Shown here: piece by piece, positions 1,171 to 23,791 of the stretch
Position numbering within the stretch: the first letter of the stretch is position 1
Layout of the letters: each line of letters begins with the position of its first letter
Assembly: GCF_016744025.1 (NCBI RefSeq)
Contig: NZ_JADGFC010000008.1
Coordinates: forward strand, 1 to 36,326
Length of the DNA stretch: 36,326 nt
DNA from: Sulfurimonas sp.
GTDB lineage: Bacteria; Campylobacterota; Campylobacteria; Campylobacterales; Sulfurimonadaceae
Direction of reading: 5' to 3'
Translations under genes and position numbers: made by a program
The notes under the pieces: generated by a model
What the model was told of the DNA's origin: nothing
Database searches by the model: none
The model's input: only the letters and a program-made list of their open reading frames with translations

Positions 1171-1635
1171 ATGAAACTGGTTGAAGGTAGATTAAAAGTA
1201 TTAAATGGCAAAAAAATTGCTATTGTTAGTACAAGATGGAATCATTTTATTGTTGATAGATTAGTAGAGGGTGCAGAAGATGCATTCAAACGTCATGGCG
1301 GAGATGAAGATGAGCTTACACATGTTCTAATTCCTGGAGCATTTGAGCTTCCAATGGTAATTGACCAAATCTTAGCATCTGGAAAATACGATGCAGTTTG
1401 TGCATTAGGTGCAGTTATTCGTGGAGCAACTCCTCACTTTGATTATGTTTCTGCTGAAGCAACAAAAGGTATCGCCACTATGAGTCTTAAGTATCAAAAG
1501 CCAGTTTCATTTGGTCTTCTTACTACGGATACTATTGAGCAAGCTATTGAGAGAGCTGGAACAAAAGCTGGTAACAAAGGTTTTGAAGCAATGACTACTG
1601 TTATTGAAATGTTAGACCTATATGAGAACCTATAA
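1171..1635 (+). CDS. ribH: 6,7-dimethyl-8-ribityllumazine synthase
   Basis: This is lumazine synthase, which joins 5-amino-6-ribitylaminouracil and 3,4-dihydroxy-2-butanone 4-phosphate in the penultimate step of riboflavin synthesis. Its 154 residues match the usual subunit length. Visible signatures are the TRWNHFI segment with substrate-stacking Trp23, PGAFELP (55-61), and [14 protein letters not shown] with the general acid/base His89. GGAAAG upstream of the ATG serves as ribosome site. The stop codon overlaps the next start as TAATG, so ribH and nusB are translationally coupled, a common arrangement in bacteria. The subunit normally assembles into pentamers or 60-mer capsids; that assembly state is known for the family and is not read from this sequence. 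Confidence 0.97.
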
Positions 1636-2039
1636 TGGCTACTAGACATCACGCAAGAATGGCAGTTGTAAGTCTTCTTTATGCTTATGACTTAGGTAAT
1701 GGAAGTATTGCAGATCACACAGATGATATTTTAGAAGAGAAAAAAATTCGTAACAAGCAAAAAGATTTTGCAATAGCTCTTTTTGAAGGTGTTATGCAAA
1801 ATCTTGAAGCTTGTGACAAGTCAATTATTGAACACTTAAAAGAGTGGGATTTTGAAAGACTTGGTGCTATTGAGAGAGCAACTCTTAGACTTGCAACTTA
1901 TGAAATTATTTTTGGTGAGCTTGACTCTGCAGTTGTTATAAATGAAGCTGTTGAGATTACAAAAGCTTTTGGTACTGAACAATCACCTAAGTTTATCAAT
2001 GGTGTTTTAGATGCTATTTCTAAAGATAAGCCTGAATAG
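1635..2039 (+). CDS. nusB: transcription antitermination factor NusB
   Basis: NusB is a small all-helical RNA-binding protein that, with NusE (S10), binds boxA of rRNA leaders and keeps RNA polymerase processive. The 134-residue product starts with the typical ATRHHARMAVVSLLYAYDLG and carries the conserved middle and end segments RATLRLATYEI and VVINEAVEITKAFG, followed by FINGVLDAI. It shares one base with the end of ribH (TAATG). The multihaem cytochrome gene starts three bases after its stop, suggesting a single transcript. The length is normal and nothing is unusual. Confidence 0.96.
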   Translation: MATRHHARMAVVSLLYAYDLGNGSIADHTDDILEEKKIRNKQKDFAIALFEGVMQNLEACDKSIIEHLKEWDFERLGAIERATLRLATYEIIFGELDSAVVINEAVEITKAFGTEQSPKFINGVLDAISKDKPE

Positions 2040-2042
2040 TTG

Positions 2043-4433
2043 ATGATTAAAATCGCTTTTTTACTGCTACTTTTCTCTTCTTTGCTCTTTGGAGCAAATG
2101 AATGTATAGTTTGTCATAAAGGCATAGAAGATATTAGAGATAGAGACTCTGGTATGATGAAGGCGATTTTAGAAGTGGCTGATAAAGCTGGTCATAAAGG
2201 CAACGATTGTATCGTTTGTCACGGTGGAAATCCCTCTAACAAAAGTGTCAAGTATGCGCATAAAGGCACTGTAAAGTATTTTAGAACAAACGAAGGTCCT
2301 AAAAACTACTATCCTGCACCAGCAAGTCCTTGGATAAATGAAAATACCTGTGGAACATGTCATCCAAATCAAGTTTCTGCTCAAATGAACTCACTTATGA
2401 TGACAGAGCAAGGCAAGATACAAGGGGCTATGTGGAGTTTTGGTGCTAAAGAAGGTTACAGTCATGAGACAGCAACTTATAATACCAAAAATCCAGATAA
2501 TCCAGACACACGTCATGGTAGTGAAATATACAAAAAGTATATGGCTAAACTTTCAAAAATGGAACCACAAGGTTTTCCTCAAGAGACACAAACTCTAGCA
2601 GATGCTCCTACTGTAGAAGAGATACATAAAGACCCATCTTTAGCTGTTAATACTTATCTTCGTCAAGAGTGTCTTAGATGTCATACCGGAAGTAAGGGTA
2701 GGCAAAAAAGAGGTGACTATAGAGGAATTGGATGTGCATCTTGTCATATTCCATATTCTAATGAAGGTTATTACGAGGGAGTAGGTAAGAAGATTTCTAA
2801 AAAGAAGGGTCATTTACTAACTCATCAGATTCAAAGTTCAAGAAAAGTAAAAGTACAAGTTCATGATATAAAGTATTCAGGAGTTCCTGTTGAGACATGT
2901 GCAACTTGTCACAATCGTGGAAAACGTATTGGTGTTTCTTACCAAGGTCTGATGGAAACAGAGTATCACTCAACATCTGAGGATGAGGGGAATCAACCTA
3001 AAAGTTATCTTCATATGAAAGAAGACATTCACTACCAAAAAGGTATGTTGTGTCAAGATTGTCATACTTCAAATGATTTACATGGTGATGGGTTTTTAGG
3101 CGGGGCAAATGCTGCTGCTGTAGAAATAGAGTGTCAAGATTGTCACGGTACTACTACAAAATACCCTTGGGAACTTCCAATTGGTTACTCAGATGAGTTC
3201 AACACAACTGCCGCAACAGGTGAGGCAAGAGGAACAGCTAAAAGTGTTGCTGATTATCTAAAACAAGGTTACGTCGCCGAGCCAGAAGATGGTTATATCT
3301 TAAGTGCACGTGGAAATCCACTTCCAAAAACAGTTAAAAAAGGCAATAAGATTATTATGCACTTGGCATCTGGAAAGGATATAGAGTTAAAACCTCTTAA
3401 ACTTTTAAAAGATACAAAAGCACTTTCTAAAAAAGCACTTATTGCTATGGATGTTGTAGACTCGCATACTCAAAATATGGAGTGTTATACTTGTCATGCA
3501 ACTTGGGCACCACAGCGTTATGGTCGTCATTTAAAAGTTGACTACTCAGATGCAAAACAAAATCCAGATTATTTAAAAGCTTCTCATGACCAAGATAAGC
3601 ATGGAACTACTGGTGGCATGCGAGACATGAAAAAGTATCTAATTCCTGGAAAAGTAACAGAAACTAGAAGTTACTTAAGATGGGAAGATCCAGCTCTAGC
3701 ACAAAATGGTGAGGGCAGAGTATCTCCTGTTGTTCCAGGGTACCAAACTACTATAACTGTTATTGGTAAAGATGGTGAAGCCCTTCTTCAAAATCACATC
3801 TTCAAGATTCAAAATGTTGAAGGAGCTGGCAAAGAAGGTCAAAATGCTATAGATATGGCTCCTATTCAACCTCATACTATTCAAAAAGAATCAAGAAGTT
3901 GTGAATCATGTCATGCATCTGACAAAGCTATTGGACTTGGTGTAGGTGGCGGAAAACTAAATAATGACCCAAGTAAAATTACTATAATTGATTTGATGAG
4001 TCCTGACAGAAAGATTCTTTCAAATAAGACGGATGAGCATATTCTTGCAATTCCAAATCTTAAACATGATTATTCACAGTTTATAGATGAAAATGGCACA
4101 CAGTTGATGACAGTAGGAAATCACTTCAAACTCTCCCAACCATTAAGTAAAAAACAAATAGGTAAACTTGATCGTAGAGGCATGTGTCTTTCTTGTCATG
4201 AAGATATACCAAAAGGAAACCTAGCAGTTAGTGCAATAACACATATAGCAGAAATGGCAGAAGTAAACATAGATACTAAGATGCACTCTGGCATCTTGAA
4301 TAAACTCTTAAATCTTGGTGCATTAGTACAAATGATTGTAGTTATTTTAGTAACACTGCTTATAATGTTTGTTATATATACTTTCTTCTTTAAGAAAGAA
4401 CCTAAAAACATAAGAAATGAAGGATGGAAATAG
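2043..4433 (+). CDS. exported, membrane-anchored eleven-haem c-type cytochrome
   Basis: The product has about 796 residues. A signal peptide covers residues 1-18 (hydrophobic 5-16). Eleven CxxCH haem-binding motifs start at residues 21, 56, 103, 210, 231, 286, 337, 364, 481, 620 and 715. One strong C-terminal transmembrane helix lies at about 757-783, followed by a short positive tail. The haem domain should therefore sit in the periplasm, tethered to the inner membrane by its C-terminus. All motifs are plain CxxCH, with no CxxCK or wide-spaced site like those of NrfA or MccA. Two haem-free stretches (369-480 and 486-619) imply folded non-haem domains. A role in electron transfer, perhaps exchanging electrons with menaquinol, is inferred; no named enzyme family was recognised. 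ATG 2043 is preferred over the in-frame TTG at 2040. It follows nusB by three bases and precedes mqnC, a menaquinone gene. Confidence 0.9.
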   Translation: MIKIAFLLLLFSSLLFGANECIVCHKGIEDIRDRDSGMMKAILEVADKAGHKGNDCIVCHGGNPSNKSVKYAHKGTVKYFRTNEGPKNYYPAPASPWINENTCGTCHPNQVSAQMNSLMMTEQGKIQGAMWSFGAKEGYSHETATYNTKNPDNPDTRHGSEIYKKYMAKLSKMEPQGFPQETQTLADAPTVEEIHKDPSLAVNTYLRQECLRCHTGSKGRQKRGDYRGIGCASCHIPYSNEGYYEGVGKKISKKKGHLLTHQIQSSRKVKVQVHDIKYSGVPVETCATCHNRGKRIGVSYQGLMETEYHSTSEDEGNQPKSYLHMKEDIHYQKGMLCQDCHTSNDLHGDGFLGGANAAAVEIECQDCHGTTTKYPWELPIGYSDEFNTTAATGEARGTAKSVADYLKQGYVAEPEDGYILSARGNPLPKTVKKGNKIIMHLASGKDIELKPLKLLKDTKALSKKALIAMDVVDSHTQNMECYTCHATWAPQRYGRHLKVDYSDAKQNPDYLKASHDQDKHGTTGGMRDMKKYLIPGKVTETRSYLRWEDPALAQNGEGRVSPVVPGYQTTITVIGKDGEALLQNHIFKIQNVEGAGKEGQNAIDMAPIQPHTIQKESRSCESCHASDKAIGLGVGGGKLNNDPSKITIIDLMSPDRKILSNKTDEHILAIPNLKHDYSQFIDENGTQLMTVGNHFKLSQPLSKKQIGKLDRRGMCLSCHEDIPKGNLAVSAITHIAEMAEVNIDTKMHSGILNKLLNLGALVQMIVVILVTLLIMFVIYTFFFKKEPKNIRNEGWK

Positions 4434-4461
4434 TGGACAAAATAACTACGAAAGCTGGACA

Positions 4462-5514
4462 ATGCAAAAAAGATTAACAAAAGAAGAAGCATTAGATTTA
4501 ATAAAAAATGCTGACTTAAAAGAACTAGGGCGGATGGCATCTGCTCGCAAGAAAGAGCTACACCCAAAAGGAATCACTACTTTTGTTGTAGATAGAAATA
4601 TCAACTATACAAATATTTGTTGGGTTGACTGTAAGTTTTGTGCATTTTATAGACATGAAAAAGATGCAGATGCATATGTTTTGACTTTTGATGAGATAGA
4701 TGCAAAGATAGATGAGTTACTTGACATTGGTGGAACTCAGATATTATTTCAAGGTGGAGTTCATCCAAAACTCAAAATAGAGTGGTATGAAGATTTAGTT
4801 GAGCATATTCATACTAAATATCCAGATATTACTATTCATGGTTTTTCTTCTATTGAGATAGATTTTATAGCTAAGGTTTCTCGTATAAGTGTTGAAAAAG
4901 TGTTAGAGAGACTTAAGGTTAAAGGTCTTGCATCTATACCTGGTGCGGGAGCTGAAATACTTAGTGATAAAGTTCGAGATATTATCGCACCTAGAAAAAT
5001 TGACTCTGAAGTATGGATAGATATTCATAGAAAAGCGCATAAGCTTGATATCAAGTCAACTGCTACTATGATGTATGGAACTGTAGAGAGTGATGAAGAT
5101 ATAATTGATCACTTTGAAATGATTAGAAAACTTCAAGATGAAACAGGTGGATTTCGTGCCTTTATTATGTGGAGTTTTCAAGGTCAAAATACTGAGCTTT
5201 TAAGACTTATCCCAGATATGGATAAACCATCATCAAATAGATACTTGAGACTTTTAGCAGTAGCTAGACTCTATCTTGATAATGTGCCAAATATCCAAAG
5301 TTCATGGGTAACTCAAGGAGCTTATATAGGTCAAATGGCTCTTAGGTTTGGAGCGAATGACTTAGGCTCAACTATGATGGAAGAGAATGTTGTAAGTAGT
5401 GCAGGTGCTGCTTATTCAATGGCAAAAGAAGAGATGGTAACTCTTATCAGAGATATTGGTGAGATACCAGCTGTAAGAAATACAGCTTATGAAACTTTAA
5501 AGAAATTTGCTTAA
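4462..5514 (+). CDS. mqnC: cyclic dehypoxanthinyl futalosine synthase (radical SAM)
   Basis: MqnC closes the ring of dehypoxanthine futalosine by radical SAM chemistry in the futalosine route to menaquinone, the route used by Campylobacterota. The CxxxCxxC cluster motif is seen in NICWVDCKFCAF, binding a 4Fe-4S cluster and S-adenosylmethionine. TQILFQGGVHP, SIPGAGAEILSDKVRD and TMMYGTVESDEDI are characteristic of MqnC, as is the C-terminal GANDLGSTMMEENVVSSAG. The chosen start MQKRLTKEEALDLI matches homologues I remember and gives 350 residues. An in-frame ATG at 4417 would add 15 residues and overlap the cytochrome gene by 17 bases; that extension has no family likeness. The gene next to it encodes an M16-like protein, a pairing I also remember from Helicobacter. 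MqnC rather than MqnE is fairly sure. Confidence 0.93.
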   Translation: MQKRLTKEEALDLIKNADLKELGRMASARKKELHPKGITTFVVDRNINYTNICWVDCKFCAFYRHEKDADAYVLTFDEIDAKIDELLDIGGTQILFQGGVHPKLKIEWYEDLVEHIHTKYPDITIHGFSSIEIDFIAKVSRISVEKVLERLKVKGLASIPGAGAEILSDKVRDIIAPRKIDSEVWIDIHRKAHKLDIKSTATMMYGTVESDEDIIDHFEMIRKLQDETGGFRAFIMWSFQGQNTELLRLIPDMDKPSSNRYLRLLAVARLYLDNVPNIQSSWVTQGAYIGQMALRFGANDLGSTMMEENVVSSAGAAYSMAKEEMVTLIRDIGEIPAVRNTAYETLKKFA

Positions 5515-5570
5515 GCAATAGGAATATTTACTGGTCATAACCCAGAAAATAGATGAGGAAAACGCAAATA

Positions 5571-6854
5571 ATGAAAAAACTTTTACTAATATTACTAATT
5601 ACAGGACAGATGATTATGGCAGCGACTATAGAATATATACAAACAAACGGATTGAAAGTACCTGTGATTATTGAAGAAGACAAGCGCCTTCCTCTTGTAA
5701 CTATGCAGTTTATTTTTAAAAATGGTGGAACAATCACTGATACTACAAAAGCTGGACTTGCAAAGTTTAGTGCAAGAATTATGAGTGAGGGAACAAAAAA
5801 ACTTGGTTCATCTGCTTTTGCTGAATCTTTAGAGAGCAAAGCTATTCATATCTCATCTTCAACTGGTAAAGAAACTTTTGTAATGGAACTTGCCTCTTTG
5901 AAAGAAGAGTTTTCTGAGGGACTTAAAAAGTTTGCTTCTTTATTAAAAGATCCTAACTTTTCTGATGAAGCAATGAGTAAGGTCAAGTCCACAACTATGG
6001 GTTCACTTAGTGCTAAAGCAAATGACTTTGACTATGTTGCTTCTAATGAGTTAAAGGCAGTTTTATTTAAAGGAACTCCTTTAGCAAACCCTGCATCTGG
6101 AACTTTAGAGAGTGTAAAAAGTATAGAACTTGATGATGTAAAAGCATTTATAAAAGAGCATTTAGTTAGTTCAAGACTTATCGTAGTTATTGGTGGTGAT
6201 GTTGATATCCAAGTTGCAAAGAGTGAAATAGAAAAAATTATCAATGCTATGCCAAAGGGTAAAGAAGCACAACAGCATCACTATGATGTTGCTAAAAAAG
6301 CTTCTGAATCTGTGTTAAAAAAAGATACTCAGCAGGCTTATGTATATTTTGGTTCTCCATATAACATCAAGTATGACTCAAAAGATTATTATAAAGCTAG
6401 AGTTGCTACTTTTATCTTAGGAACAGGTGGTTTTGGTTCACGTCTTATGGAAGAGATAAGAGTTAAAAAAGGTTTGGCTTATTCTGCTTATGCAAGAGTA
6501 AGTGCTAGTAAATCAAGTAACTTTATGACAGGTTATTTACAAACTAAGTTAGACTCTCTTGATGAAGCTAAAAAAACTGTTAAAGAAGTTATAGCAGAGT
6601 TTGTAAAAAATGGTGTTACACAAGAAGAACTAGATCAAACTAAAAAATTCTTACTTGGAAGTGAACCTTTAAGAGTTGAAACAATGGGTCAAAGACTAAA
6701 CCGTACTTTTATGGAGTACTACAACGGTCAAGAACTAGGTCATTCAATCAAAGAGTTAGAGTTAGTTAAAGAGTTAAAACTAAAAGACCTTAATGAGTAT
6801 ATAAAAAGTCATAAAGAAATTTTAGAAATGAGTTTTGCAATAGTTACTAAATAA
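5571..6854 (+). CDS. periplasmic M16-family zinc-protease-like protein, probably catalytically inactive
   Basis: The product has 427 residues starting at ATG 5571, which has AGGAA ten bases upstream; the upstream in-frame ATG at 5553 lacks such a site. Residues 1-17 form a signal peptide ending MIMA before ATIEYIQ. The fold is that of insulinase/processing-protease (M16) subunits: an N-terminal domain with GLAKFSARIMSEGT and a second domain with GFGSRLMEEIRVKKGLAYSA. The zinc motif HxxEH is missing: Lys65, Ala68 and Arg69 stand where the two His and the Glu belong. The substrate-holding Arg/Tyr pair of the second domain is kept (Arg296, Tyr303). In known two-subunit M16 enzymes one partner carries the zinc site and the other the Arg/Tyr pair, so a catalytic partner elsewhere in the genome is likely. 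It lies downstream of mqnC, and a terminator candidate follows. Confidence 0.9.
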   Translation: MKKLLLILLITGQMIMAATIEYIQTNGLKVPVIIEEDKRLPLVTMQFIFKNGGTITDTTKAGLAKFSARIMSEGTKKLGSSAFAESLESKAIHISSSTGKETFVMELASLKEEFSEGLKKFASLLKDPNFSDEAMSKVKSTTMGSLSAKANDFDYVASNELKAVLFKGTPLANPASGTLESVKSIELDDVKAFIKEHLVSSRLIVVIGGDVDIQVAKSEIEKIINAMPKGKEAQQHHYDVAKKASESVLKKDTQQAYVYFGSPYNIKYDSKDYYKARVATFILGTGGFGSRLMEEIRVKKGLAYSAYARVSASKSSNFMTGYLQTKLDSLDEAKKTVKEVIAEFVKNGVTQEELDQTKKFLLGSEPLRVETMGQRLNRTFMEYYNGQELGHSIKELELVKELKLKDLNEYIKSHKEILEMSFAIVTK

Positions 6855-6855
6855 T

Positions 6856-6878
6856 TATTGCAATCTGCAATATTTTTT
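6856..6878 (+). terminator. intrinsic terminator after the M16-like gene
   Basis: TATTGCA at 6856-6862 and TGCAATA at 6866-6872 form a seven-pair stem with a three-base loop, followed directly by six T at 6873-6878. The stem is AT-rich, so it may be leaky. It suggests recG can be transcribed separately. Confidence 0.5.
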
Positions 6879-6924
6879 GATGAGTTTTAAAAAAAGAGTT
6901 AGTATTACAAACTAAGGACATAAA

Positions 6925-8724
6925 ATGAAGCTCACAAAAGATATAAAAACAAAATTTGATAAACTAGGTGTTAACTCTTGGTGTGAACTCTCTCTTAATA
7001 TTCCTCACTCATATGAAGACCTCACTCTTCATCCTACAATCCAAATGGGCAAAGCTCAACTTATAGATGCAACCGTTGAATCTGTTTTTCGTGCTCCAAA
7101 TACAATCCAAATAACTTTTTTTGCACATAACCTAGGACACAGTATAAGTGGTGTACTTTTTCGTCCAAAACCATATATGATGCATCAGTTTAAAGTAGGA
7201 GATAGAGACTACTACTATGGAGTAGTTGATTGTAAAACTGGAAACTGCAGTATAACGATGCCAAGAAAAACAACAAGTGTAGGTGCTATAACTCCAAAAT
7301 ACAAATCAGCTCTTAGAAGTGATGTAATGCTACGGCTTGTACAAAACAACCTAACACTAGAGAACTTACTCTCAGAGGGCTTAAAAGAAGAGATAGCAGC
7401 ACAAATACTAAAACTTCATTTTCCCACTGAATTAGTTGACCTAAAAGACTTAGATGCAAAGAGTATAGATGCTTTAAAATATTTAGAACTATTTACATAT
7501 ATGAAACAACTCTCAGCAAAAAGAAGATATTTTAAGTCAACTGTAAAAGTAGATGCTTCTTATGATGAATGGAAAAATAGACTTCCATTTGAATTAACAA
7601 ATGAGCAAATAGATGCAATACAAGATATAAAATGTGACTTCAACAAAGATGTGGCATCTAGACGTATGATAGTTGGAGATGTTGGAAGTGGAAAGACTAT
7701 GGTAATTTTAGCCGCTGCATCTATGATGTTGCCAAATCGTTCAATACTTATGGCACCAACTACAATACTTGCTAACCAACTTTTTGAAGAAGCGCAAAAG
7801 TTCTTGCCAAATGCAAAATCAGTTTTAGTTACAAATAAATCTAAAAAGATTGATTTAAATGAATTTGATTTCATAATAGGAACACACGCTCTTTTATACA
7901 GAGAACTTCCAGAAGCAGGACTTGTTATGGTTGATGAACAACATCGTTTTGGAACTGCTCAGAGAAATATGCTTGAGAAATTAGTAAGTTACGGAGATAG
8001 TAAACCACATTTTTTACAGTTTAGTGCAACCCCAATTCCAAGAACACAAGCTATGATAGAAACTGCCCATATTAATGTTAGTCTTATAACTTCTACACCT
8101 TTTACTAAAGACATAGATAGTAAGGTTATACATAAAAATGATTTTAAAGAATTACTAGAAAACATAAAAGAAGAGATAAGTAAAAATAATCAGGTTCTTT
8201 TAGTTTATCCATTGGTTGAGCAGAGTGAAGTTCTGGAGTATCAGAGTATCGAAGAAGCAAGGGCTTATTGGGAAAAAAACTTTGATAATGTTTATGTAAC
8301 TCATGGAAAAGACAAACAAAAAGAAGAAGTTCTTTTTGAATTTAGAGAAAAAGGAAGTTTACTCATTGCAACTACAGTGGTCGAAGTTGGGATATCTTTG
8401 CCGAGACTTACTACGGTTGTTATAGTTGGTGCTGAGAGACTAGGACTCTCAACTCTTCATCAGCTTAGAGGAAGAGTCAGTAGAACAGGTTTAAAAGGTT
8501 ACTGTTATCTTTATACAAATAATAGTGTAACTGAAAGACTAGATAGATTTGTAGATACTATAAGTGGTTTTGATATAGCAAATTTGGATTTAAAGTTTAG
8601 AAAAAGTGGCGATTTACTTAAGGGTGCGTCTCAGAGTGGTAGTCAGTTTAAATGGGTTGATTTGTCTGAAGATGTTGAGATTGTTAAAAGTGTGAAAGTT
8701 GATTTGAGTGAAAGTGTGTCTTAA
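6925..8724 (+). CDS. recG: ATP-dependent DNA helicase RecG
   Basis: RecG is a superfamily 2 translocase that remodels stalled forks and branch-migrates Holliday junctions. The 599-residue protein has an N-terminal wedge/OB-type region (about 1-200) and a helicase core with Walker A GDVGSGKT (251-258), DEQH box (337-340, followed by RFG), SATPIPRT (367-374), the TTVVEVGIS segment of motif V and QLRGRVSR (513-520, motif VI). It is about 90 residues shorter than the E. coli enzyme, as I recall for Campylobacterota, with the difference mostly N-terminal. An AAGGA ribosome site precedes the ATG. The gene is separated from its upstream neighbour by a terminator candidate and is convergent with hpf. 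Confidence 0.94.
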   Translation: MKLTKDIKTKFDKLGVNSWCELSLNIPHSYEDLTLHPTIQMGKAQLIDATVESVFRAPNTIQITFFAHNLGHSISGVLFRPKPYMMHQFKVGDRDYYYGVVDCKTGNCSITMPRKTTSVGAITPKYKSALRSDVMLRLVQNNLTLENLLSEGLKEEIAAQILKLHFPTELVDLKDLDAKSIDALKYLELFTYMKQLSAKRRYFKSTVKVDASYDEWKNRLPFELTNEQIDAIQDIKCDFNKDVASRRMIVGDVGSGKTMVILAAASMMLPNRSILMAPTTILANQLFEEAQKFLPNAKSVLVTNKSKKIDLNEFDFIIGTHALLYRELPEAGLVMVDEQHRFGTAQRNMLEKLVSYGDSKPHFLQFSATPIPRTQAMIETAHINVSLITSTPFTKDIDSKVIHKNDFKELLENIKEEISKNNQVLLVYPLVEQSEVLEYQSIEEARAYWEKNFDNVYVTHGKDKQKEEVLFEFREKGSLLIATTVVEVGISLPRLTTVVIVGAERLGLSTLHQLRGRVSRTGLKGYCYLYTNNSVTERLDRFVDTISGFDIANLDLKFRKSGDLLKGASQSGSQFKWVDLSEDVEIVKSVKVDLSESVS

Positions 8725-8728
8725 ATAT

Positions 8729-8754
8729 TGTAAAAGGAATTTATTCCCTTTACA
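8729..8754. terminator. hairpin between convergent recG and hpf
   Basis: The eleven-base arms 8729-8739 and 8744-8754 pair with one mismatch around a four-base loop, midway between two convergent genes. Neither side has a clear T run, so factor-independent termination is uncertain, but the position fits a shared bidirectional terminator. Confidence 0.4.
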
Positions 8755-8760
8755 TAACTA

Positions 8761-9294
8761 TTAATATAGTCCGAATTTACCGTCGTTTCTTTTGTAAAGA
8801 ACACGAGTTTTATTTTCGTTATCTAAAAATATTTCAAACATTTTATTATTTTCTTTTAGGTCGTTTAAAACATCTTCAACTTCACGAGGTTTATAAAGAT
8901 CAAGTTCAACTGGAACAATCTCATCTTCGTTAGCTTCAGCTTCTTCTTTAAGATCAACACTTTCTGCTTTGATCTCATTAAGACCAGTTACACGGTGTCC
9001 AACTTCTTTATCATGCATACGACGTAAAGCTTTTTGAGCTCTAGCAATAGCTAAATCAATTGCAGCGTATAAATCGCCATCATTTTGCTTGATAACAACA
9101 GAGTTTTTGTGAGCAAGGTTAATAACGAACTCAACAACAGAGTGCTCTTTACCTTTTTTTGTTTGAGTAGAAGCTACAACATTTACAGAAATAATATCCA
9201 TATTATATTTAGTTAGTGTTTCAATAGATGTATTCATATGAGCTTTGATTGGCTCAGTAAGTTCTAATTGTCTACCTGTAAGAGAAATATTCAT
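8761..9294 (-). CDS. hpf: ribosome hibernation promoting factor, long form
   Basis: HPF binds the 30S decoding site and, in its long form, pairs two 70S ribosomes into inactive 100S dimers during stress or slow growth. The 177-residue product has the N-terminal HPF/RaiA fold (about 1-100, starting MNISLTGRQLELTEPIKAHM), an acidic linker (about 125-145), and the long-form dimerisation domain at the end (LYKPREVEDVL through VLYKRNDGKFGLY, about 133-177). The C-terminal domain distinguishes it from short E. coli HPF or YfiA. AAAGG upstream of the ATG is the ribosome site. It has its own promoter with an ~88-base leader that can form a hairpin, and it converges on recG. Confidence 0.93.
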   Translation of the reverse strand: MNISLTGRQLELTEPIKAHMNTSIETLTKYNMDIISVNVVASTQTKKGKEHSVVEFVINLAHKNSVVIKQNDGDLYAAIDLAIARAQKALRRMHDKEVGHRVTGLNEIKAESVDLKEEAEANEDEIVPVELDLYKPREVEDVLNDLKENNKMFEIFLDNENKTRVLYKRNDGKFGLY

Positions 9295-9321
9295 AATTTG
9301 ACCTTTTATATTGTTAGTTCA

Positions 9322-9344
9322 CAAAAGAAATTATATTTCTTTTG
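9322..9344. repeat. perfect inverted repeat in the hpf leader
   Basis: CAAAAGAAA at 9322-9330 and TTTCTTTTG at 9336-9344 form a perfect nine-pair stem with a five-base loop, about 28 bases upstream of the hpf start. The minus strand also reads TATAAT inside it (9330-9335), so it may instead overlap a second promoter. The role is unknown. Confidence 0.6.
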
Positions 9345-9388
9345 CTTCACTTGGGCCACTAGGACCACTAAAGTTAATTAGTTGGTGG

Positions 9389-9394
9389 ATTATA
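9389..9394 (-). promoter_or_regulatory. -10 box upstream of hpf
   Basis: The minus strand reads GTTATAATCC here. The predicted start is near 9382, giving an ~88-base leader. The box lies just beyond the 3' end of the pilin operon. Confidence 0.5.
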
Positions 9395-9415
9395 ACATTA
9401 AAAAGTTTATATAAA

Positions 9416-9886
9416 TTATGATTTTTGGATGCTTCTTCTAAAATAACGAATAGGTTCAGTTGTCCCATCAGGATTAGCAGTTATTGTGATATCCATTAAA
9501 ACACTACCATCAGAATTAGGGTAAGTTATAGCTGTATAATCTGATGTAGAAAATGTATCACAATTGCTACCATTAAAATAGACATAACTCATTGTAATAT
9601 TAACATCGTAAGTCTCGTTATATCTGAAGTCTAAATTAGAAAGACTACATGGATTTTGTTGAGATATTTTTAACATAGCATACTCAGCTGCACTTTGAGA
9701 TAATAACACTGATTGTTCATAAAGATACAGGTCAGTTGTTCTTTTTGTTGTTTGTGTAGAGAGTGATAATGAAAGAGCCATAATGGTTGTAATAACTACT
9801 AAAACAACAATAGCCATTATCATCGCCATTGCTGAACGAAAGCTTTTTTTATGAGAAGTTTTTAAAAAATAGTTTTTTCTTTGCAT
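9416..9886 (-). CDS. PilX-like minor pilin, last gene of the surface/pilin operon
   Basis: The 156-residue protein has a positively charged N-terminus (MQRKNYFLKTSHKKSFRS) followed by a hydrophobic helix, AMAMIMAIVVLVVITTIMAL (about 19-38), and a stretch rich in Ser, Thr and Gln. The remainder is a small extracytoplasmic domain with two Cys (near 80 and 109) that could form a disulfide. This layout, including RSAMAMIMAIVVLVV, is that of PilX/GspK-type minor pilins, which often lack the classic FTLIE cleavage box. The start overlaps the end of the preceding pseudopilin gene by 25 bases, so the genes are coupled. The exact family is uncertain; export and pilin-like topology are well supported. 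Confidence 0.7.
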   Translation of the reverse strand: MQRKNYFLKTSHKKSFRSAMAMIMAIVVLVVITTIMALSLSLSTQTTKRTTDLYLYEQSVLLSQSAAEYAMLKISQQNPCSLSNLDFRYNETYDVNITMSYVYFNGSNCDTFSTSDYTAITYPNSDGSVLMDITITANPDGTTEPIRYFRRSIQKS

Positions 9887-10818
9887 ATTGAATACTCCTC
9901 ATCTTTGATTAGTGAACTTTTAACACATACTTGAATTTTTAATAAAGATTCTCTTGCAATAAATCTAAAAGAACTTACATTTTGCATAATAATTTGGCTT
10001 TTTGTTTCATCTCCATTAGATTGAAGCAAATATGTATCACCTTTCCATGGTTGATAGTCATACCATAGAGTAAGTGTTCCGGTTTTAGTTGTATCATCCC
10101 AACCTGTTATACCAACAGCATAAGCACTCCACGCAAGTTGATAGAACTCATAAGCGATTACTTGAGAAAAGTTATTATCAGCACCGATAGAAGTAATTGG
10201 TTTAAATTTACTTATCCCATTGGCATCAATTGGATGAATAGCATTTAAATTATTTGCATCTACGCCAATTTGAGTATCAAACTTACTTGTATTTGCATCC
10301 CATCCCCAATTAGTATCTAGTGAGTCTGGATTTATAAAATAGATAGCAGCATCTTCAATACCGCTATTAGTATTAGACAAGATATCTATTAAAGTATTTA
10401 TATCTCCTGTATCAGTTCGTGGAGAAGATAAAGAAGAAGAATTTGTAATAGTTGAGTTTAAATCAATAATTCCACTCCAGTAAGGAAGAGCATCTCCTCT
10501 AAAGCCGTCTACATCTGAACCAACCCATTCTAAAATATTTGCAGTTGTAGCGGTATAGTCTTTTAAAGAGGTGAAATTATGGTCATTTTCTCTTGCTATA
10601 GTAGAAGCTTTGATTCTATGTTGAAGTCTTGTTGCAACAAACTCTACTGCTGTAGCTGAGTTAGACTGCAGTTCATGGTTGATTTTAGAGTTAATAAATC
10701 CACTATAAGACTGAGCTAAAAATTCAACACCAAATTTTGCTAATATCGCCATGATAACTATTACAAATATTAACTCTAACATTGTAAAAGCTTTACGAAA
10801 TTTACTTTTTATAATCAT
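9862..10818 (-). CDS. type IV pilin-like (pseudopilin) protein
   Basis: The 318-residue protein begins with a prepilin leader MIIKSKFRKA and the processing/methylation segment FTMLELIFVIVIMAILAKFG. The peptidase would cut between Ala10 and Phe11, and the conserved Glu lies at position 5 of the mature protein. Ala in place of the usual Gly before the cut appears also in the neighbouring pilin gene. The large C-terminal region (about 35-318) is an extracytoplasmic domain with two Cys near its end. Its size suggests a minor, tip or GspJ/PilW-like subunit rather than a major pilin. Its start overlaps the preceding frameshifted pilin gene as ATGA. No assembly ATPase, platform protein or prepilin peptidase is in the window, so it must use machinery encoded elsewhere. 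Confidence 0.85.
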   Translation of the reverse strand: MIIKSKFRKAFTMLELIFVIVIMAILAKFGVEFLAQSYSGFINSKINHELQSNSATAVEFVATRLQHRIKASTIARENDHNFTSLKDYTATTANILEWVGSDVDGFRGDALPYWSGIIDLNSTITNSSSLSSPRTDTGDINTLIDILSNTNSGIEDAAIYFINPDSLDTNWGWDANTSKFDTQIGVDANNLNAIHPIDANGISKFKPITSIGADNNFSQVIAYEFYQLAWSAYAVGITGWDDTTKTGTLTLWYDYQPWKGDTYLLQSNGDETKSQIIMQNVSSFRFIARESLLKIQVCVKSSLIKDEEYSICKEKTIF

Positions 10819-11473
10819 GGGGTAAGTAGCTCATTCTCGTAAGCGATTTCTCCAATATTAGCACTATATGCTCTAAGAAGTGTAACGGTTGTATTTGTAG
10901 CATCATCTTTTTCTCTAATAGTTACAGTTATCTCTTTAATATTAATATTAGTATTGTTATTTTCTTCACCAAACTTTATACAGTTTCCACTATCACAGTT
11001 CTCTACTTCTAATAAACTATCATACTCTTGTTTGTATCCAGATGCACCTGTACTATCTGTGTATATCTCCATGTAAGCATGTTCGGCAGCTTCAAGTGAA
11101 TCAACATAATCAAAATTTGCATAGCGAACTGTAAGGTTGTTATCTAAACATCTTCTATTTACATGTCCAACTCTTCTTTGAATTTCAACAGTTCCATCTA
11201 AAATTCCTGATCCATTACAATTATTATCAATGTTTAAAACTCTTGATAAATCATCACCTGTAGCATTTACATCGTCATCATCTATAAGAGAGTATATGTA
11301 GTAGCTAAATTTATTTCTGCTACAGATGCAAAGATAGCTTCTTGGACAAGGTTTTTCTCTATTGCTGATGATGTTACTTGTGTAAGCATTGGTAGAGACA
11401 TAACTGATATTCCTATAATGACTATGGCAAATATCAACTCTATTAATGTAAAAGCATATTTGTGTATTACCAC
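10815..11473 (-). pseudogene. frameshifted type IV pilin-like gene
   Basis: The gene starts at GTG 11473, seven bases inside the end of the giant surface gene and behind an AGGAG ribosome site. Its first 63 codons encode a short leader and FTLIELIFAIVIIGISVM, a textbook prepilin segment cut after Ala7. Frame one then stops at TAG 11282-11284. The rest of the protein continues in another frame, from about YSLIDDDDVNATGDD to the stop at 10815, with three Cys and the usual pilin-like C-terminal domain. Removing one CT unit from a (CT)3 tract (11287-11292, minus strand) restores one open frame reading ATTYTLIDDDD. It may be a true mutation, a reversible slipped-strand switch or a sequence error. 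Without the shift it would be a ~218-residue MshO/PilV-like minor pilin. Confidence 0.85.
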
Positions 11474-14400
11474 AATGTTCTCCTATTAACACGTCTTACT
11501 TTTTCTGTTTGTGTCGTTGTGTTTGTCTCATGTTGACCTGACCAATCTGTTGCAGACTGAAAGATTACTATATTTTTATTTGTTGTTGCTGTTGTATCAT
11601 CTTCATCATATATAAGCCAATTGGATATATTACTATTCATTGTAGCTGTATAAGGAAGACCATTCGCCGTATTATAACTATGCTCGGAATCTTTTGTATA
11701 ATTATTTAAGTTTGTTATTGTTGGTACAGTAACAAGACCTGCTGCTTCGGAACTAGCAGTTAAGTTGCCATCTCCACTTTGATTATGATTTAGATTTACA
11801 TACCATCTGCTGTCAACCTTTTGTATATATCTTGAACTTAGAGTAGGAAGAAGAGTTCTATCACATGTGTTTGAATTTGTTGTACCAAAACAGTAAGTTT
11901 CATAGTATATAAGTACATCAGACTCTTCATTTTCTCCTGAAATACAAGGTGAATTCTCACAAACTATTCTTGTTTTTCTTCCAGCTGTTCTTCCGAAGTA
12001 ATGGGTTACGTTTTGTCCTGATAATCCATTTATTGTTATGTTGTTAGCAGCTGTTTTATTTGTATCTAAGTCAGCATTAAAAAAAGTTCTTGGATCATAC
12101 ACAGTAACTTTTGAGTAATTAATATCTTCAGGATTCGAAACTATATTTTGATTTCTATCAAAATTAAGACTCATGATACTGTTTAGAGTACCATTCATGT
12201 CTTTTGCAAAAAAAGTATTTGGAGTAGTTATATTTGCATCTTCATTAGAAACATTTGCTATTGATGCAATAGTATTCCCTGTTGTATTCCTATCACTGAT
12301 TATATAAATTAAATTAAGGTTTGTATTTAACGGAGCAGACTTGCTAATATTAATATCTATAGGTTTCGCATAACATTGAGTAACGAAGTTACTTAGAGAA
12401 GAGTTATCATAACCTTGAGGAGTTATGGAACTATTTACTTGAACTGACATGTTAATATCATTTACATTATTTATATTTGCCATATATACAAAGTTTGAAA
12501 AATCATTAGTCGTATTAATATCTCTATTTGTTAGTCCAAGAGTCACATCACTACTTATATCAAATTTATAAGGATGAAACTCTATCTTATAATTTCTGTA
12601 CTTTAAAGAAGTGCCACTTGCATCATGATTAGAATTGATGTTGCAGCCATTCTTAATGTTTGAATTTACAATTTGAGTATCTGCGCTATTGCTTACACAG
12701 TCAGATGTTGCTGATGAGATAAAATATGTTGAATCTCCGTCATGATGTGACATATATGTAGAGTTACTATCAACTGAAGTCCAGGTTGTATCTTCTATTT
12801 TTAATACATACTCTCCTACTTGGTTTAGAGAACTATTAAAATCAGCTTCTCCATTAAGAATTGAAAAAGAAACTGTACTATTAGAATCATCATTACAACC
12901 AGAGCTAACGCCTGTTGGCGACCATTCATATGTACTAACATCTGAAGAAGTACCTGTAAAAGATTTAGTATAGCCAAATGATGAAGTGTTATCTAAATAA
13001 TTACTTGCATTTACTTCAAGATTGTATTGATAACCTGCTGATAGATGCGTTGTATCAGTTGATGGTGTAATTACACCAGAGATATCATCATCAATTTTAA
13101 GTTTCGAAGCTGGATTTGTTTGGTTTTGGTCATTTATCTTAATTATAAGAGCTTCTGGTCTTATGGCAAAATTATCTCTAGAACATATAAATCTTGTGTT
13201 AATTCCATATGTACACTCCATACAACTAGCTAACTGAGATTTTGTCATATTACTTGTACAGTATGAGTCAACTGCATCATCGGTAGTATCGTTGTTATCA
13301 TTCATATCTTGAGCACAATTTCCTCCAGCATATGTGAAATTATTGATGCTGTAATCATTTGTTGCATTCTTTGTTAAATCAGTTATGGAACCATTTACGT
13401 CACTTGCATTATATGTTACACGAAAGGCGGTATTCTGTCTGGCTTTAGTGTAAAAATCGTAGCTATTAGTTAAGTCAGTCATATTGTCTGCAATTGCTGA
13501 TTCTAATGCAGCTTTGTTAAATTGTGATGATGTAGAGTTTTCATCAACAATAACCCAAACTTTTTCACTAATGGAACTTGCAAGCTCTTTACACGAAGCA
13601 TCTGTGTAATGAAATGCTCCTGCATCTATCATTTCAACTGCTACAATTGTTGTTGGATGATCATTGAGTAATGTGTCTCTGTCATCAGGATCCATTGCTA
13701 AAACTTTAAAATTACCTTCTCTTTTTGTAACTTGTGTTGGAATGTTATAGTATTTATTTCCACTGCTACCATTATACGTGTAAAAATTATTGTGTGCTAT
13801 ATTAAATATACCTTTTGCAGGCGCATAATTAAAGTTTGAGGTCGTACATAATGGAATTTCTTCACTTAATTTTAGACTGTATTCTACGGATGCAGAATCC
13901 AAGGCTAAGTCATAGTTTGCTACCACATTTATTGGTATATCCATGGTAGACATTTGAGGATCTAAATCATAGTAAATATAAAAGTAATCATTTTCCTCTA
14001 ATGTACCGATGAAAATGTTGTTTATATAATCAGAAGCACCATCTAAGCTTTGCCCTGAGGTTACGGTAACTATGTCTGGAGTGGCGTCACCTACTTTAGC
14101 GAGCAGTGTAGAATCAGATATATAAGTTGCTTGAGTTCTGTTAATATCTGAAATATCAACTGACATATTACTGATTGTGATGCTTGAATCAACTAGACTT
14201 TTTACAAAAATAGACATTTTTATAGGTTCATTTACAGTTACATCTCCGCTTAATACTGGTGGATTACTACCATCATTATCTTCTGTAAAGTATTGATCAT
14301 ACTGTGAGTATGAATAGTCATAACAAAACTCAGGGACAAAAACTTCAGTTTCAAATGCAAACATATTTAAAGAGAATCTATCTTGAGTTGAAGAGATTTT

Positions 14401-16170
14401 GATTTTTGTTTCTACTTGAGAGTTTGATAGTTTTTGTTTTGAAGTATCTTCTTTTATATTAATAGGGAGTTTGTCTATATCAACACCCAGAACATTTCTG
14501 TAGTTTGGGTTTGCCATGCCAGAGTCATTTGAACGATACCCACTAGTATAATCAAGTGAATATACACTAGCATTTACAACGTCAGTTGAAGTGTTAGCAC
14601 CATCAACAAGTGACAACCAATCAGTACCTACATTTACATCTCCATCTTTTTTTAGTATCTTAACACTATCTCCATATGAACCATCACTTTCTCCCATATA
14701 TATAAATAGGTTTGCATTAAATGGGTCACTGCCTGTGGGTGTAATAAATCCACTAGCATCTGCAGTGGCTGATCTTGGATATCCAGAGTTTATTGATACT
14801 GAGTAAAAACCATCAAATAGAGATATGTTTTTTAAGCTACGACTTGTATTTTCTACTATTACAATTAGTTGCCATGAAGCGTATTGATTATAACCATTTG
14901 ATGCTACAATTCCTCCTGCATAATATTCACCAGCCCCTTGAGCCTTTATATAGTCTGTAACATCTTGTGAAGCTACATAATCAAAAGTTGAACCAGATTT
15001 GTGCCAGTTGTATTTTGCATTTGTTGAAGTATATGATGTATATGAAGTTGCGTTAGGTCCTTTTAGTTGTATCGTTTTTGCGCTATCTTTTTGTGTGCTT
15101 GTTATATTGTCTATTCTTGCTGACCAATATAGTCTTGCAAATATTACTTCATCTCCTGTTTCCATAACTAGTTTGGCCATTGTATTACTTGATGGAGCTC
15201 CAGAAGAGGTGTCAATCTTAGCCTTATGTTGATTATGGCTGTTGTTTGGAGTCCCAAGTGAAGGCTCTTCACAACTAGCACCATCAGAATTGTTTTTACA
15301 TAAAAGTTGATTACCTATTTGTAATATTGAACCGTTTATTGTTACGCTGTCTTTACCTGATATGGATACATTTGTGAATGCTCTTGTATTTACATTTTCA
15401 CTAGATAGGTCTATGTCATCTGTAAGATTCATTACAAAATTTTCAACATCGAAACCAGAAGTGTTAGAAGCATTTATCTCTAGTGTGTAGCTATTTGTTG
15501 TATTGGACTCTAAGTTTGGGTTACTTTCTATTGTAATGTCTCCACTATCATTAACTGCAAATATACTATCTATATCACCTGATAATATAGAAAAAGAAGT
15601 AGGTGAACCAGTAGAGACTATAGTTCCAACAACAGTATCTGTAGGTGCTTCATTATATATAGTATAAGTAGCAGGCGTAATTATAGGTATGATAGGATTA
15701 GTAGCTTCAATAGTTACATTATCAAGTTTAACAAGTTCATCTGAAGATGCAGTATCAGTTGAGAAGGATATTTTCAATTTCCCATCTGTATCTAAAGATG
15801 TACTATAACTCATGCTATAAGTTCCATCCGATTTGGATTTTGTAATAACTGTTCCGTCGTTAAATTGGGTCTTAAAATAGTCTTTGTATGAACCTGATGT
15901 CTCCCATCCTCCGATAACTTTAAGTTGAAAAGTTACTGTTACTGAGATATTTTTATAAGTTGATGTAAAGTCAAATGTTTTATGAGACTCTCTATCTTGA
16001 TTTATTTTAAGTTCATTTTTATCCCCGTCATCTCTACTCCATCCACTTAAAGAACTACTTTCAAAACTATCAATATGAGGCAGTGTTAGTGCACTTAGAG
16101 TTGAGTAAAGAAGATGTATGGTAAAAAATATACTTAGAAAGAAAGAAAATTTGAAATTTAAAGTTTTCAT
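11467..16170 (-). CDS. giant exported surface protein heading a pseudopilin operon
   Basis: The protein has about 1567 residues from ATG 16170, which has AAGGAGT upstream; an in-frame ATG at 16209 lies before that site. Residues 1-27 form a signal peptide (hydrophobic 8-26). Residues 31-156 resemble a jelly-roll or carbohydrate-binding type domain (SFESSSLSGWSRDDG). Residues about 170-250 are cadherin-like (FSILSGDIDSIFAV). A following section carries ARLYWSARI, DVTDYIKAQGAGEY and SWQLIVIVENTSR, a pattern seen in large bacterial surface proteins. The remaining ~900 residues are rich in Asn, Ser, Thr and Asp, with scattered Cys pairs (CMECTYG). It is followed at once by three pilin-like genes, much as mshQ sits among MSHA minor-pilin genes, so a pilus-associated or tip adhesin role is inferred. 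No LPxTG motif or clear autotransporter barrel was seen. Confidence 0.8.
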   Translation of the reverse strand: MKTLNFKFSFFLSIFFTIHLLYSTLSALTLPHIDSFESSSLSGWSRDDGDKNELKINQDRESHKTFDFTSTYKNISVTVTFQLKVIGGWETSGSYKDYFKTQFNDGTVITKSKSDGTYSMSYSTSLDTDGKLKISFSTDTASSDELVKLDNVTIEATNPIIPIITPATYTIYNEAPTDTVVGTIVSTGSPTSFSILSGDIDSIFAVNDSGDITIESNPNLESNTTNSYTLEINASNTSGFDVENFVMNLTDDIDLSSENVNTRAFTNVSISGKDSVTINGSILQIGNQLLCKNNSDGASCEEPSLGTPNNSHNQHKAKIDTSSGAPSSNTMAKLVMETGDEVIFARLYWSARIDNITSTQKDSAKTIQLKGPNATSYTSYTSTNAKYNWHKSGSTFDYVASQDVTDYIKAQGAGEYYAGGIVASNGYNQYASWQLIVIVENTSRSLKNISLFDGFYSVSINSGYPRSATADASGFITPTGSDPFNANLFIYMGESDGSYGDSVKILKKDGDVNVGTDWLSLVDGANTSTDVVNASVYSLDYTSGYRSNDSGMANPNYRNVLGVDIDKLPINIKEDTSKQKLSNSQVETKIKISSTQDRFSLNMFAFETEVFVPEFCYDYSYSQYDQYFTEDNDGSNPPVLSGDVTVNEPIKMSIFVKSLVDSSITISNMSVDISDINRTQATYISDSTLLAKVGDATPDIVTVTSGQSLDGASDYINNIFIGTLEENDYFYIYYDLDPQMSTMDIPINVVANYDLALDSASVEYSLKLSEEIPLCTTSNFNYAPAKGIFNIAHNNFYTYNGSSGNKYYNIPTQVTKREGNFKVLAMDPDDRDTLLNDHPTTIVAVEMIDAGAFHYTDASCKELASSISEKVWVIVDENSTSSQFNKAALESAIADNMTDLTNSYDFYTKARQNTAFRVTYNASDVNGSITDLTKNATNDYSINNFTYAGGNCAQDMNDNNDTTDDAVDSYCTSNMTKSQLASCMECTYGINTRFICSRDNFAIRPEALIIKINDQNQTNPASKLKIDDDISGVITPSTDTTHLSAGYQYNLEVNASNYLDNTSSFGYTKSFTGTSSDVSTYEWSPTGVSSGCNDDSNSTVSFSILNGEADFNSSLNQVGEYVLKIEDTTWTSVDSNSTYMSHHDGDSTYFISSATSDCVSNSADTQIVNSNIKNGCNINSNHDASGTSLKYRNYKIEFHPYKFDISSDVTLGLTNRDINTTNDFSNFVYMANINNVNDINMSVQVNSSITPQGYDNSSLSNFVTQCYAKPIDINISKSAPLNTNLNLIYIISDRNTTGNTIASIANVSNEDANITTPNTFFAKDMNGTLNSIMSLNFDRNQNIVSNPEDINYSKVTVYDPRTFFNADLDTNKTAANNITINGLSGQNVTHYFGRTAGRKTRIVCENSPCISGENEESDVLIYYETYCFGTTNSNTCDRTLLPTLSSRYIQKVDSRWYVNLNHNQSGDGNLTASSEAAGLVTVPTITNLNNYTKDSEHSYNTANGLPYTATMNSNISNWLIYDEDDTTATTNKNIVIFQSATDWSGQHETNTTTQTEKVRRVNRRTLW

Positions 16171-16236
16171 AAAAGACTCCTTATATTGCAACAGAAATAA
16201 TGGGCTCATGTATCATTTAATATTTGTAAAGAATTT

Positions 16237-23600: not shown

Positions 23601-23791
23601 ATACCTCTTTCTCTGGCTATATTACCTACTACATCATTTAAATATTTATTTTCATATAATTTATCGTGAAGTATTTCTGCTCTTTCATAGTTTTTAAATG
23701 AATCATATAAGTAATAACTTGTTAGTGAAAGTAGAAGAATAATAGGAAATAAGCTAATTAGTATTAATCTGTTTTTTAAACCTAACTGCAT
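20627..23791 (-). CDS. membrane hybrid histidine kinase with NIT-type sensor and three receiver modules
   Basis: The 1054-residue protein has two transmembrane helices (about 8-28 and 314-337) enclosing a periplasmic sensor. The sensor shows the paired ERG motifs of NIT (nitrate/nitrite-sensing) domains: [10 protein letters not shown] (61-70) and [10 protein letters not shown] (195-204). Between them lies a His/Cys-rich insert ([13 protein letters not shown], 105-117). After a short linker come HisKA with His413 (SHEIRTP), an HATPase domain with N-box Asn526/Asn530, DSGIG (564-568) and GGTGLGL (593-599), then three receiver modules. Only the middle receiver (about 785-905, Asp836 in MDIQMP, Lys891) is intact. 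The first (648-757) and third (936-1050) have lost the acidic pocket and the conserved Lys. It follows the HPt gene by three bases. NIT assignment is from motif pattern; the ligand is unknown. Confidence 0.93.

Follow-up and report, generated by a model that had tools for sequence, protein, structure and literature searches.

What kind of cytochrome lies between nusB and mqnC in this Sulfurimonas genome, and what does its unusual set of haems say about its role? The window, that is, the whole stretch of 36,326 nucleotides analysed (RefSeq assembly GCF_016744025.1, contig NZ_JADGFC010000008.1, positions 1 to 36,326), has the gene order kdsA-ribH-nusB-cytochrome-mqnC-M16 peptidase-recG, and a preliminary description had presented the cytochrome as an eleven-haem, C-terminally anchored protein of no recognised family, possibly linked to menaquinone through mqnC. 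The eleven plain CxxCH motifs, the nusB-mqnC gene run and the single hydrophobic stretch at the C-terminus (starts of the 19-residue windows at aa 749-768) were all recovered in the 796-aa frame (Table 1), whose ATG has a possible alternative start in a TTG at 2040. The frame encodes a real multihaem cytochrome, because shuffles of the same composition yield practically no such motifs (mean 0.02 CxxCH, maximum 1); the protein has no Cys outside the eleven motifs, and no second copy of its gene was found in the window genome (2.93 Mb, given as 100% complete). Where two long haem-free domains had been described, we count four haem-free stretches of at least 90 aa (102, 112, 134 and 90 aa), the longest of which, between motifs 9 and 10 of this protein, is haem-free because a twelfth motif was lost there. 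Elsewhere in the window, the ORFs at 11467-16209 (1580 aa) and 9862-10818 (318 aa, with a pseudopilin-like N-terminus) had no Pfam match at 1e-5, and a hybrid histidine kinase with an NIT (nitrate/nitrite sensing) domain and a receiver domain is encoded at 20627-23791.

Table 1. Features of the cytochrome gene and its immediate surroundings, in positions of the window.
Feature	Position	Strand	Basis
CDS, multihaem c-type cytochrome, 11 CxxCH, ExtM-related	2043..4433	+	ORF, motifs, NCBIfam match; orthologs 44-86% identity
Signal peptide, aa 1-18, MIKIAFLLLLFSSLLFGA	2043..2096	+	hydrophobicity
Haem motifs 1-3 (aa 21-25, 56-60, 103-107), N-terminal trihaem part	2103..2363	+	motif scan
Haem motifs 4-8 (aa 210, 231, 286, 337, 364)	2670..3146	+	motifs; Pfam MtrC/MtrF II/IV and cytochrome c554 matches
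In-frame deletion site; conserved KLHT of QPKLHTK gone, invariant His lost	2999..3000	+	ortholog alignment
Haem motif 9, CYTCH, aa 481-485	3483..3497	+	motif scan
Lost haem-10 motif, RYGRH, aa 492-496 (CYGCH in 12-haem orthologs)	3516..3530	+	alignment, codons
Tyr567 (TAC) replacing invariant Cys of PGCQ	3741..3743	+	alignment
Family haem motif 11, CESCH, aa 620-624	3900..3914	+	motifs, alignment
Family haem motif 12, CLSCH, aa 715-719	4185..4199	+	motifs, alignment
C-terminal membrane helix, about aa 757-781, then short tail ending GWK	4311..4385	+	hydrophobicity, alignment
nusB, neighbour	1635..2039	+	stop at 2039, cytochrome ORF directly after
mqnC, neighbour	4462..5514	+	ATG at 4462
DUF302 gene fossil, 17 codons, MEIVDKITTKAGQCKKD followed by stop	4424..4477	+	both ends kept, middle 133 codons deleted in frame

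The view that the protein belongs to no recognised family had to be given up. The NCBIfam model of ExtM (NF040943) matches aa 190-634 with 202 bits (E 1.4e-59), and in a genome-wide profile search the N-terminal part (aa 19-121) was ExtM-like as well (E 4e-10). Since the equivalog cut-off of the model is 800 bits, the window protein is not an ExtM equivalog; against the same cut-off, a 12-haem ortholog (L108) scores 230 bits. Pfam adds MtrC/MtrF domain II/IV over aa 208-372 (49 bits, gathering score 30) and general c7/c554/c3 motifs. The exclusion of NrfA, Hao, MccA and octahaem tetrathionate reductase was borne out at the level of sequence, as no NCBIfam model of these enzymes reached its cut-off for the window protein and searches of PDB sequences gave no usable relative (best E 0.017 for a c7-like protein and 0.17 for MccA). 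Two AlphaFold models, one of L108 built with 45 sequences (mean pLDDT 52) and one of its haem 9-11 region (47), are both of low confidence, and a Foldseek comparison with the PDB returned chance matches only. Another NCBIfam model, NF040968 (ExtO, named as an iron-sulfur subunit), may be mislabelled, because it and the ExtN model match the same cytochrome region with nearly equal scores.

The search for homologues and genomic partners that had been proposed for this gene uncovered a 12-haem ExtM-related family whose neighbours depend on the genus. When 150 genomes from the phylum were scanned, 13 near-full-length orthologs (44-76% identity) emerged, all with twelve motifs, and 73 of 120 genomes of the genus had a match. 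A search of contigs found 463 stretches encoding relatives, and of the 80 kept for analysis all have twelve motifs, apart from a few truncated at a contig end and L152, whose ORF call is short. Eleven is thus not the family number: every complete ortholog of the same type that was sampled has twelve haems. The window protein is homologous to this family over its full length, 11 of the 12 motifs as well as the C-terminal anchor lying in register, and has RYGRH and PGYQ where the family has the haem-10 CYGCH and the Cys of PGCQ. Judged from these alignments, it is a distant ExtM relative and an aberrant member of a widespread 12-haem Campylobacterota family, itself an otherwise unnamed and undescribed branch; the tree makes it kin by descent, and its function has probably changed.

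At haem 10, relatives read WAPQCYGCHVKxDYS and the window protein WAPQRYGRHLKVDYS; two T-to-C transitions, each turning a Cys codon from TGT to CGT, convert CYGCH to RYGRH. About 70 residues further on, the invariant Cys of PGCQ is a Tyr in the window protein. This loss is recent, since the three nearest relatives (L031-L033, 85-86% identity) retain all twelve haem motifs. Among 56 complete orthologs, in which the PGCQ Cys is the only invariant Cys apart from those that bind haem, 259 columns are at least 98% conserved, and the window protein differs at nine of them, including both haem-10 Cys, the PGCQ Cys and the His of QPKLHTK; that all four unit residues fall among the nine has a hypergeometric probability of 7e-7, in a test framed after the pattern had been seen. 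The KLHT His was also considered as the sole partner of haem 10 and rejected as a general rule: L084 keeps the His without haem 10, and ExtM-like proteins with haem 10 align no His there.

The two elements also disappear together elsewhere. Across 161 sequences of the family and of ExtM/ExtN, CYGCH and PGCQ were both present in 137 and both absent in 24 (one of these, L076, being an uninformative fragment that ends before the site), and not a single sequence had one of them alone. On a 68-protein tree the loss label changed at least seven times, and on a tree of 70 proteins from a more restricted set at least four times; seven co-losses should therefore be read as an estimate, because both trees are quick and some of their branches are long. 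Haem 10 was lost in all seven events (a chance of about 1e-4 were the lost haems random), and haem 4, the next most frequently lost, in three. At the nusB-mqnC site, the versions without haem 10 and the Cys have ten haems (L068-L071 and L073; L074 and L075; L084) or seven (L078, L079, L101), the latter missing the N-terminal trihaem part entirely. Both elements are also missing from Campylobacter-like versions with ten haems that lie at other sites (L222, L223, L224, L226) and from ExtN-like proteins encoded beside ExtM-like ones. The pairing is shown for the Campylobacterota family and its ExtM/ExtN cousins only, because it is broken by a homologue of 1329 aa on a Sphingobium plasmid (28% identity over aa 316-500), with CGGCH in the place of haem 10 and no PGCQ. 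Within that range, the alignments establish haem 10 and the PGCQ Cys as one unit, kept or lost whole, without which the remaining protein persists.

Several further observations accompany this survey. Reduction is graded at one site in one genus, from 12 through 11, 10 and 7 haems to a remnant, and haem 4 tends to go along with haem 10 (in the set L068, L074, L078, L084 and L101). The Sphingobium homologue belongs to a multihaem cytochrome cluster (L188, 2179-11346) on plasmid pMSHV of the alphaproteobacterium Sphingobium herbicidovorans; other Sphingobium and Sphingopyxis plasmids also have matches, and the ExtM model had zero matches on plasmids. In another locus (L234, G394:C72) the full cytochrome gene is followed, some 1.5 kb downstream, by a partial second copy of 200 aa at 8650-9252. 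The short tail after the membrane helix (4386-4430 in the window) closes with a GWK motif that the Sulfurimonas orthologs share, the 7-haem versions included, and may therefore bind something cytoplasmic. Next to the window gene, a DUF302 gene is reduced to a fossil; the whole gene encodes 150 aa and is complete in L031 and L033, with a match over 145 aa in L032. The rest of the window genome has one weak DUF302 match (C141, E 6e-5), and a near relative (G208) has seven. DUF302 was rejected as the partner of haem 10, given that several 12-haem orthologs lack it and L074, L078 and L079 present the opposite case.

Is the window gene simply decaying? We consider it improbable that it is a pseudogene in early decay. 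Such decay would account for the loss of four invariant residues and for 66 window-specific amino-acid changes, against 20 in the sister L031 and no comparable excess in mqnC, nusB and ribH, and remnants do occur at the same site in the genus, e.g., L085 (G171), a short piece with a stop. However, the 796-codon frame and its eleven motifs are intact, the anchor and the GWK-ending tail are retained in all reduced Sulfurimonas versions examined, dN/dS is about 0.09 on the window branch against 0.06-0.07 in the sisters (pairwise values that are rough because synonymous sites are near saturation), and the excess of changes is partly explained by a synonymous branch longer than that of the sisters. 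The intact frame, the low dN/dS and the kept anchor and tail therefore indicate that constraint was mildly relaxed or the role changed, with purifying selection continuing. To a sequencing or assembly error we give almost no credence: the loss has been read in one genome of the species, but two T-to-C changes, a two-base change at aa 567, the in-frame loss of KLHT and the 133-codon deletion would all have to be wrong, and the same co-loss is found in independent lineages. The preliminary description had suggested a periplasmic electron hub, quinol-linked and connected with menaquinone by way of mqnC, which we find very doubtful. Such a hub would suit a protein with a membrane anchor and many haems, and among the Sulfurimonas loci examined that extend far enough, almost all preserve the order nusB-cytochrome-mqnC. 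Nevertheless, mqnC is a biosynthetic housekeeping gene, the site is particular to Sulfurimonas and a few near kin, and the cytochrome gene is located elsewhere, with other neighbours, in Sulfurovum (many copies lie beside dcd, a SurA-like isomerase gene and topA) and in the order's other families; genes for a quinol-oxidising module are absent from the vicinity, and no quinol-binding part was found in the window protein.

The surroundings of the gene in other lineages are of a different kind. Unanchored copies (L219, L227, L231, L232, L233, L235, L237) adjoin one to three thioredoxin-fold genes and mostly a two-component system too; near the copies of L219, L227 and L232 there is also a gene for a monohaem cytochrome c, and near those of L227 and L232 one for a flavoprotein matching the models of flavocytochrome c sulfide dehydrogenase (FCSD) and type III SQR (the L232 cluster spans 1261-9697). 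The ExtM-like genes of L218 and L220 are preceded by genes for a rhodanese, an NrfD-like protein, a PhsA-type molybdoenzyme, a 4Fe-4S protein, a Rieske protein and cytochrome b, and in such PhsA/rhodanese clusters the ExtM-like relative has CYGCH and PGCQ and the adjacent ExtN-like partner has neither. These two Campylobacterales clusters (L218, G434:C31, 2985-13074; L220, G408:C25, 9128-19365) pair a 12-haem ExtM-like with an 8-10-haem ExtN-like cytochrome. A combination of Phs/PsrABC with a Rieske/cytochrome b pair has been described for cable bacteria (PMC13047784). The Sulfurimonas and Sulfurovum loci have no sulfur-metabolism neighbours of the gene, and the papers examined on sulfur metabolism in these genera do not mention the cytochrome. 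Because the neighbours in other lineages are rhodanese, PhsA-type, thioredoxin-fold and FCSD/SQR-like genes, the context there points, by association, to sulfur or selenium chemistry rather than to menaquinone synthesis.

We envisage a periplasmic multihaem cytochrome that the C-terminal helix would hold to the inner membrane. Haem 10 and the PGCQ Cys would act in this family as a single functional unit, most likely the reaction site, in which the Cys may be the distal ligand of haem 10 or may line the open side of the haem, and to or from which the other haems would carry electrons; the recurrent co-loss points to such a hidden site. Its substrate may be a sulfur or selenium compound. Enzymes of sulfur compounds, TsdA and SoxAX among them, have such an invariant Cys at or close to a c-haem. 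In the window lineage both haem Cys, the distant Cys and the associated His are gone, and selection still acts on the eleven haems, the anchor and the frame. Because the unit was lost while the remainder stayed under selection, the window protein would most likely be a wire derived from an enzyme, relaying electrons between a partner in the periplasm and the membrane side but no longer performing the haem-10 reaction. We put the chances of this reading, a reaction site for a sulfur or selenium compound in the family and an enzyme-derived electron wire in the window, at about even. It is possible, although in our judgement unlikely, that haem 10 with the PGCQ Cys as its axial ligand is instead an electron entry, exit or docking haem, that the whole family is a pure conduit, and that the branch was lost together with its partner, in the window with DUF302. 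The co-loss would be explained equally well, being just as expected were Cys567 a mere axial ligand of a non-catalytic haem 10, and the loss of the adjacent DUF302 gene, the Pfam MtrC/MtrF match and the placing of ExtM/ExtN behind genes for a Rieske protein and cytochrome b all suit a conduit; yet within the genus DUF302 and haem 10 do not occur in step, and the typical occurrence of an invariant Cys at the c-haem of sulfur enzymes argues for a reaction site.

More tentatively, if the unit is indeed catalytic, ExtM and its Campylobacterota relatives might constitute a new class of sulfur or selenium enzymes built on a c-haem and a Cys about 70 residues away, converted to a wire some seven times, with the window protein as the most recent step. 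ExtM-type cytochromes are present in Geobacter, in cable bacteria and in many Campylobacterota from vents and seeps, and our search of the literature on them found no reported reaction, active site or ExtM biochemistry. The repeated loss of haem and Cys together names, from sequence alone, a candidate site for ExtM-type chemistry, and natural pairs with and without it, such as the window protein and its 86%-identical 12-haem sister, make the question directly testable.

Among known systems, MccA, octahaem tetrathionate reductase, NrfA and Hao have in common with the window protein a periplasmic multihaem nature and generic CxxCH motifs, with no significant sequence match. The outer-membrane decahaem cytochromes MtrC/MtrF share the Pfam II/IV match, over only about 165 residues, and differ in that the window protein has eleven motifs, a signal peptide without a lipobox Cys, a C-terminal anchor of the inner-membrane type, and housekeeping genes rather than an MtrB-like porin cluster as immediate neighbours. 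ExtM (GSU2935) is the 12-haem cytochrome of the extHIJKLMNOPQS cluster of Geobacter sulfurreducens, in which selenite and tellurite reduction is diminished when the porin gene extI is deleted (PMC5877670), and homologues of ExtM and ExtN have been reported in cable bacteria (PMC11976967). The window protein is homologous to ExtM in both segments matched by its model, the haem number reported for ExtM is that of the 12-haem orthologs, and the Campylobacterota relatives of ExtM share CYGCH and PGCQ. Unlike ExtM, the window protein is about 200 residues longer, carries a C-terminal membrane helix, has eleven haems, lacks CYGCH and PGCQ, and is encoded outside any ext-like cluster, among kdsA, ribH, nusB, mqnC, the M16 peptidase gene and recG. 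With ExtN (GSU2934) and the ExtN-like 8-10-haem cytochromes it has in common the C-terminal haem region and the absence of the haem-10 motif and of the PGCQ Cys; whereas those proteins are shorter, unanchored and encoded beside an ExtM, the window protein has lost the unit separately and recently, its three nearest relatives still being 12-haem cytochromes.
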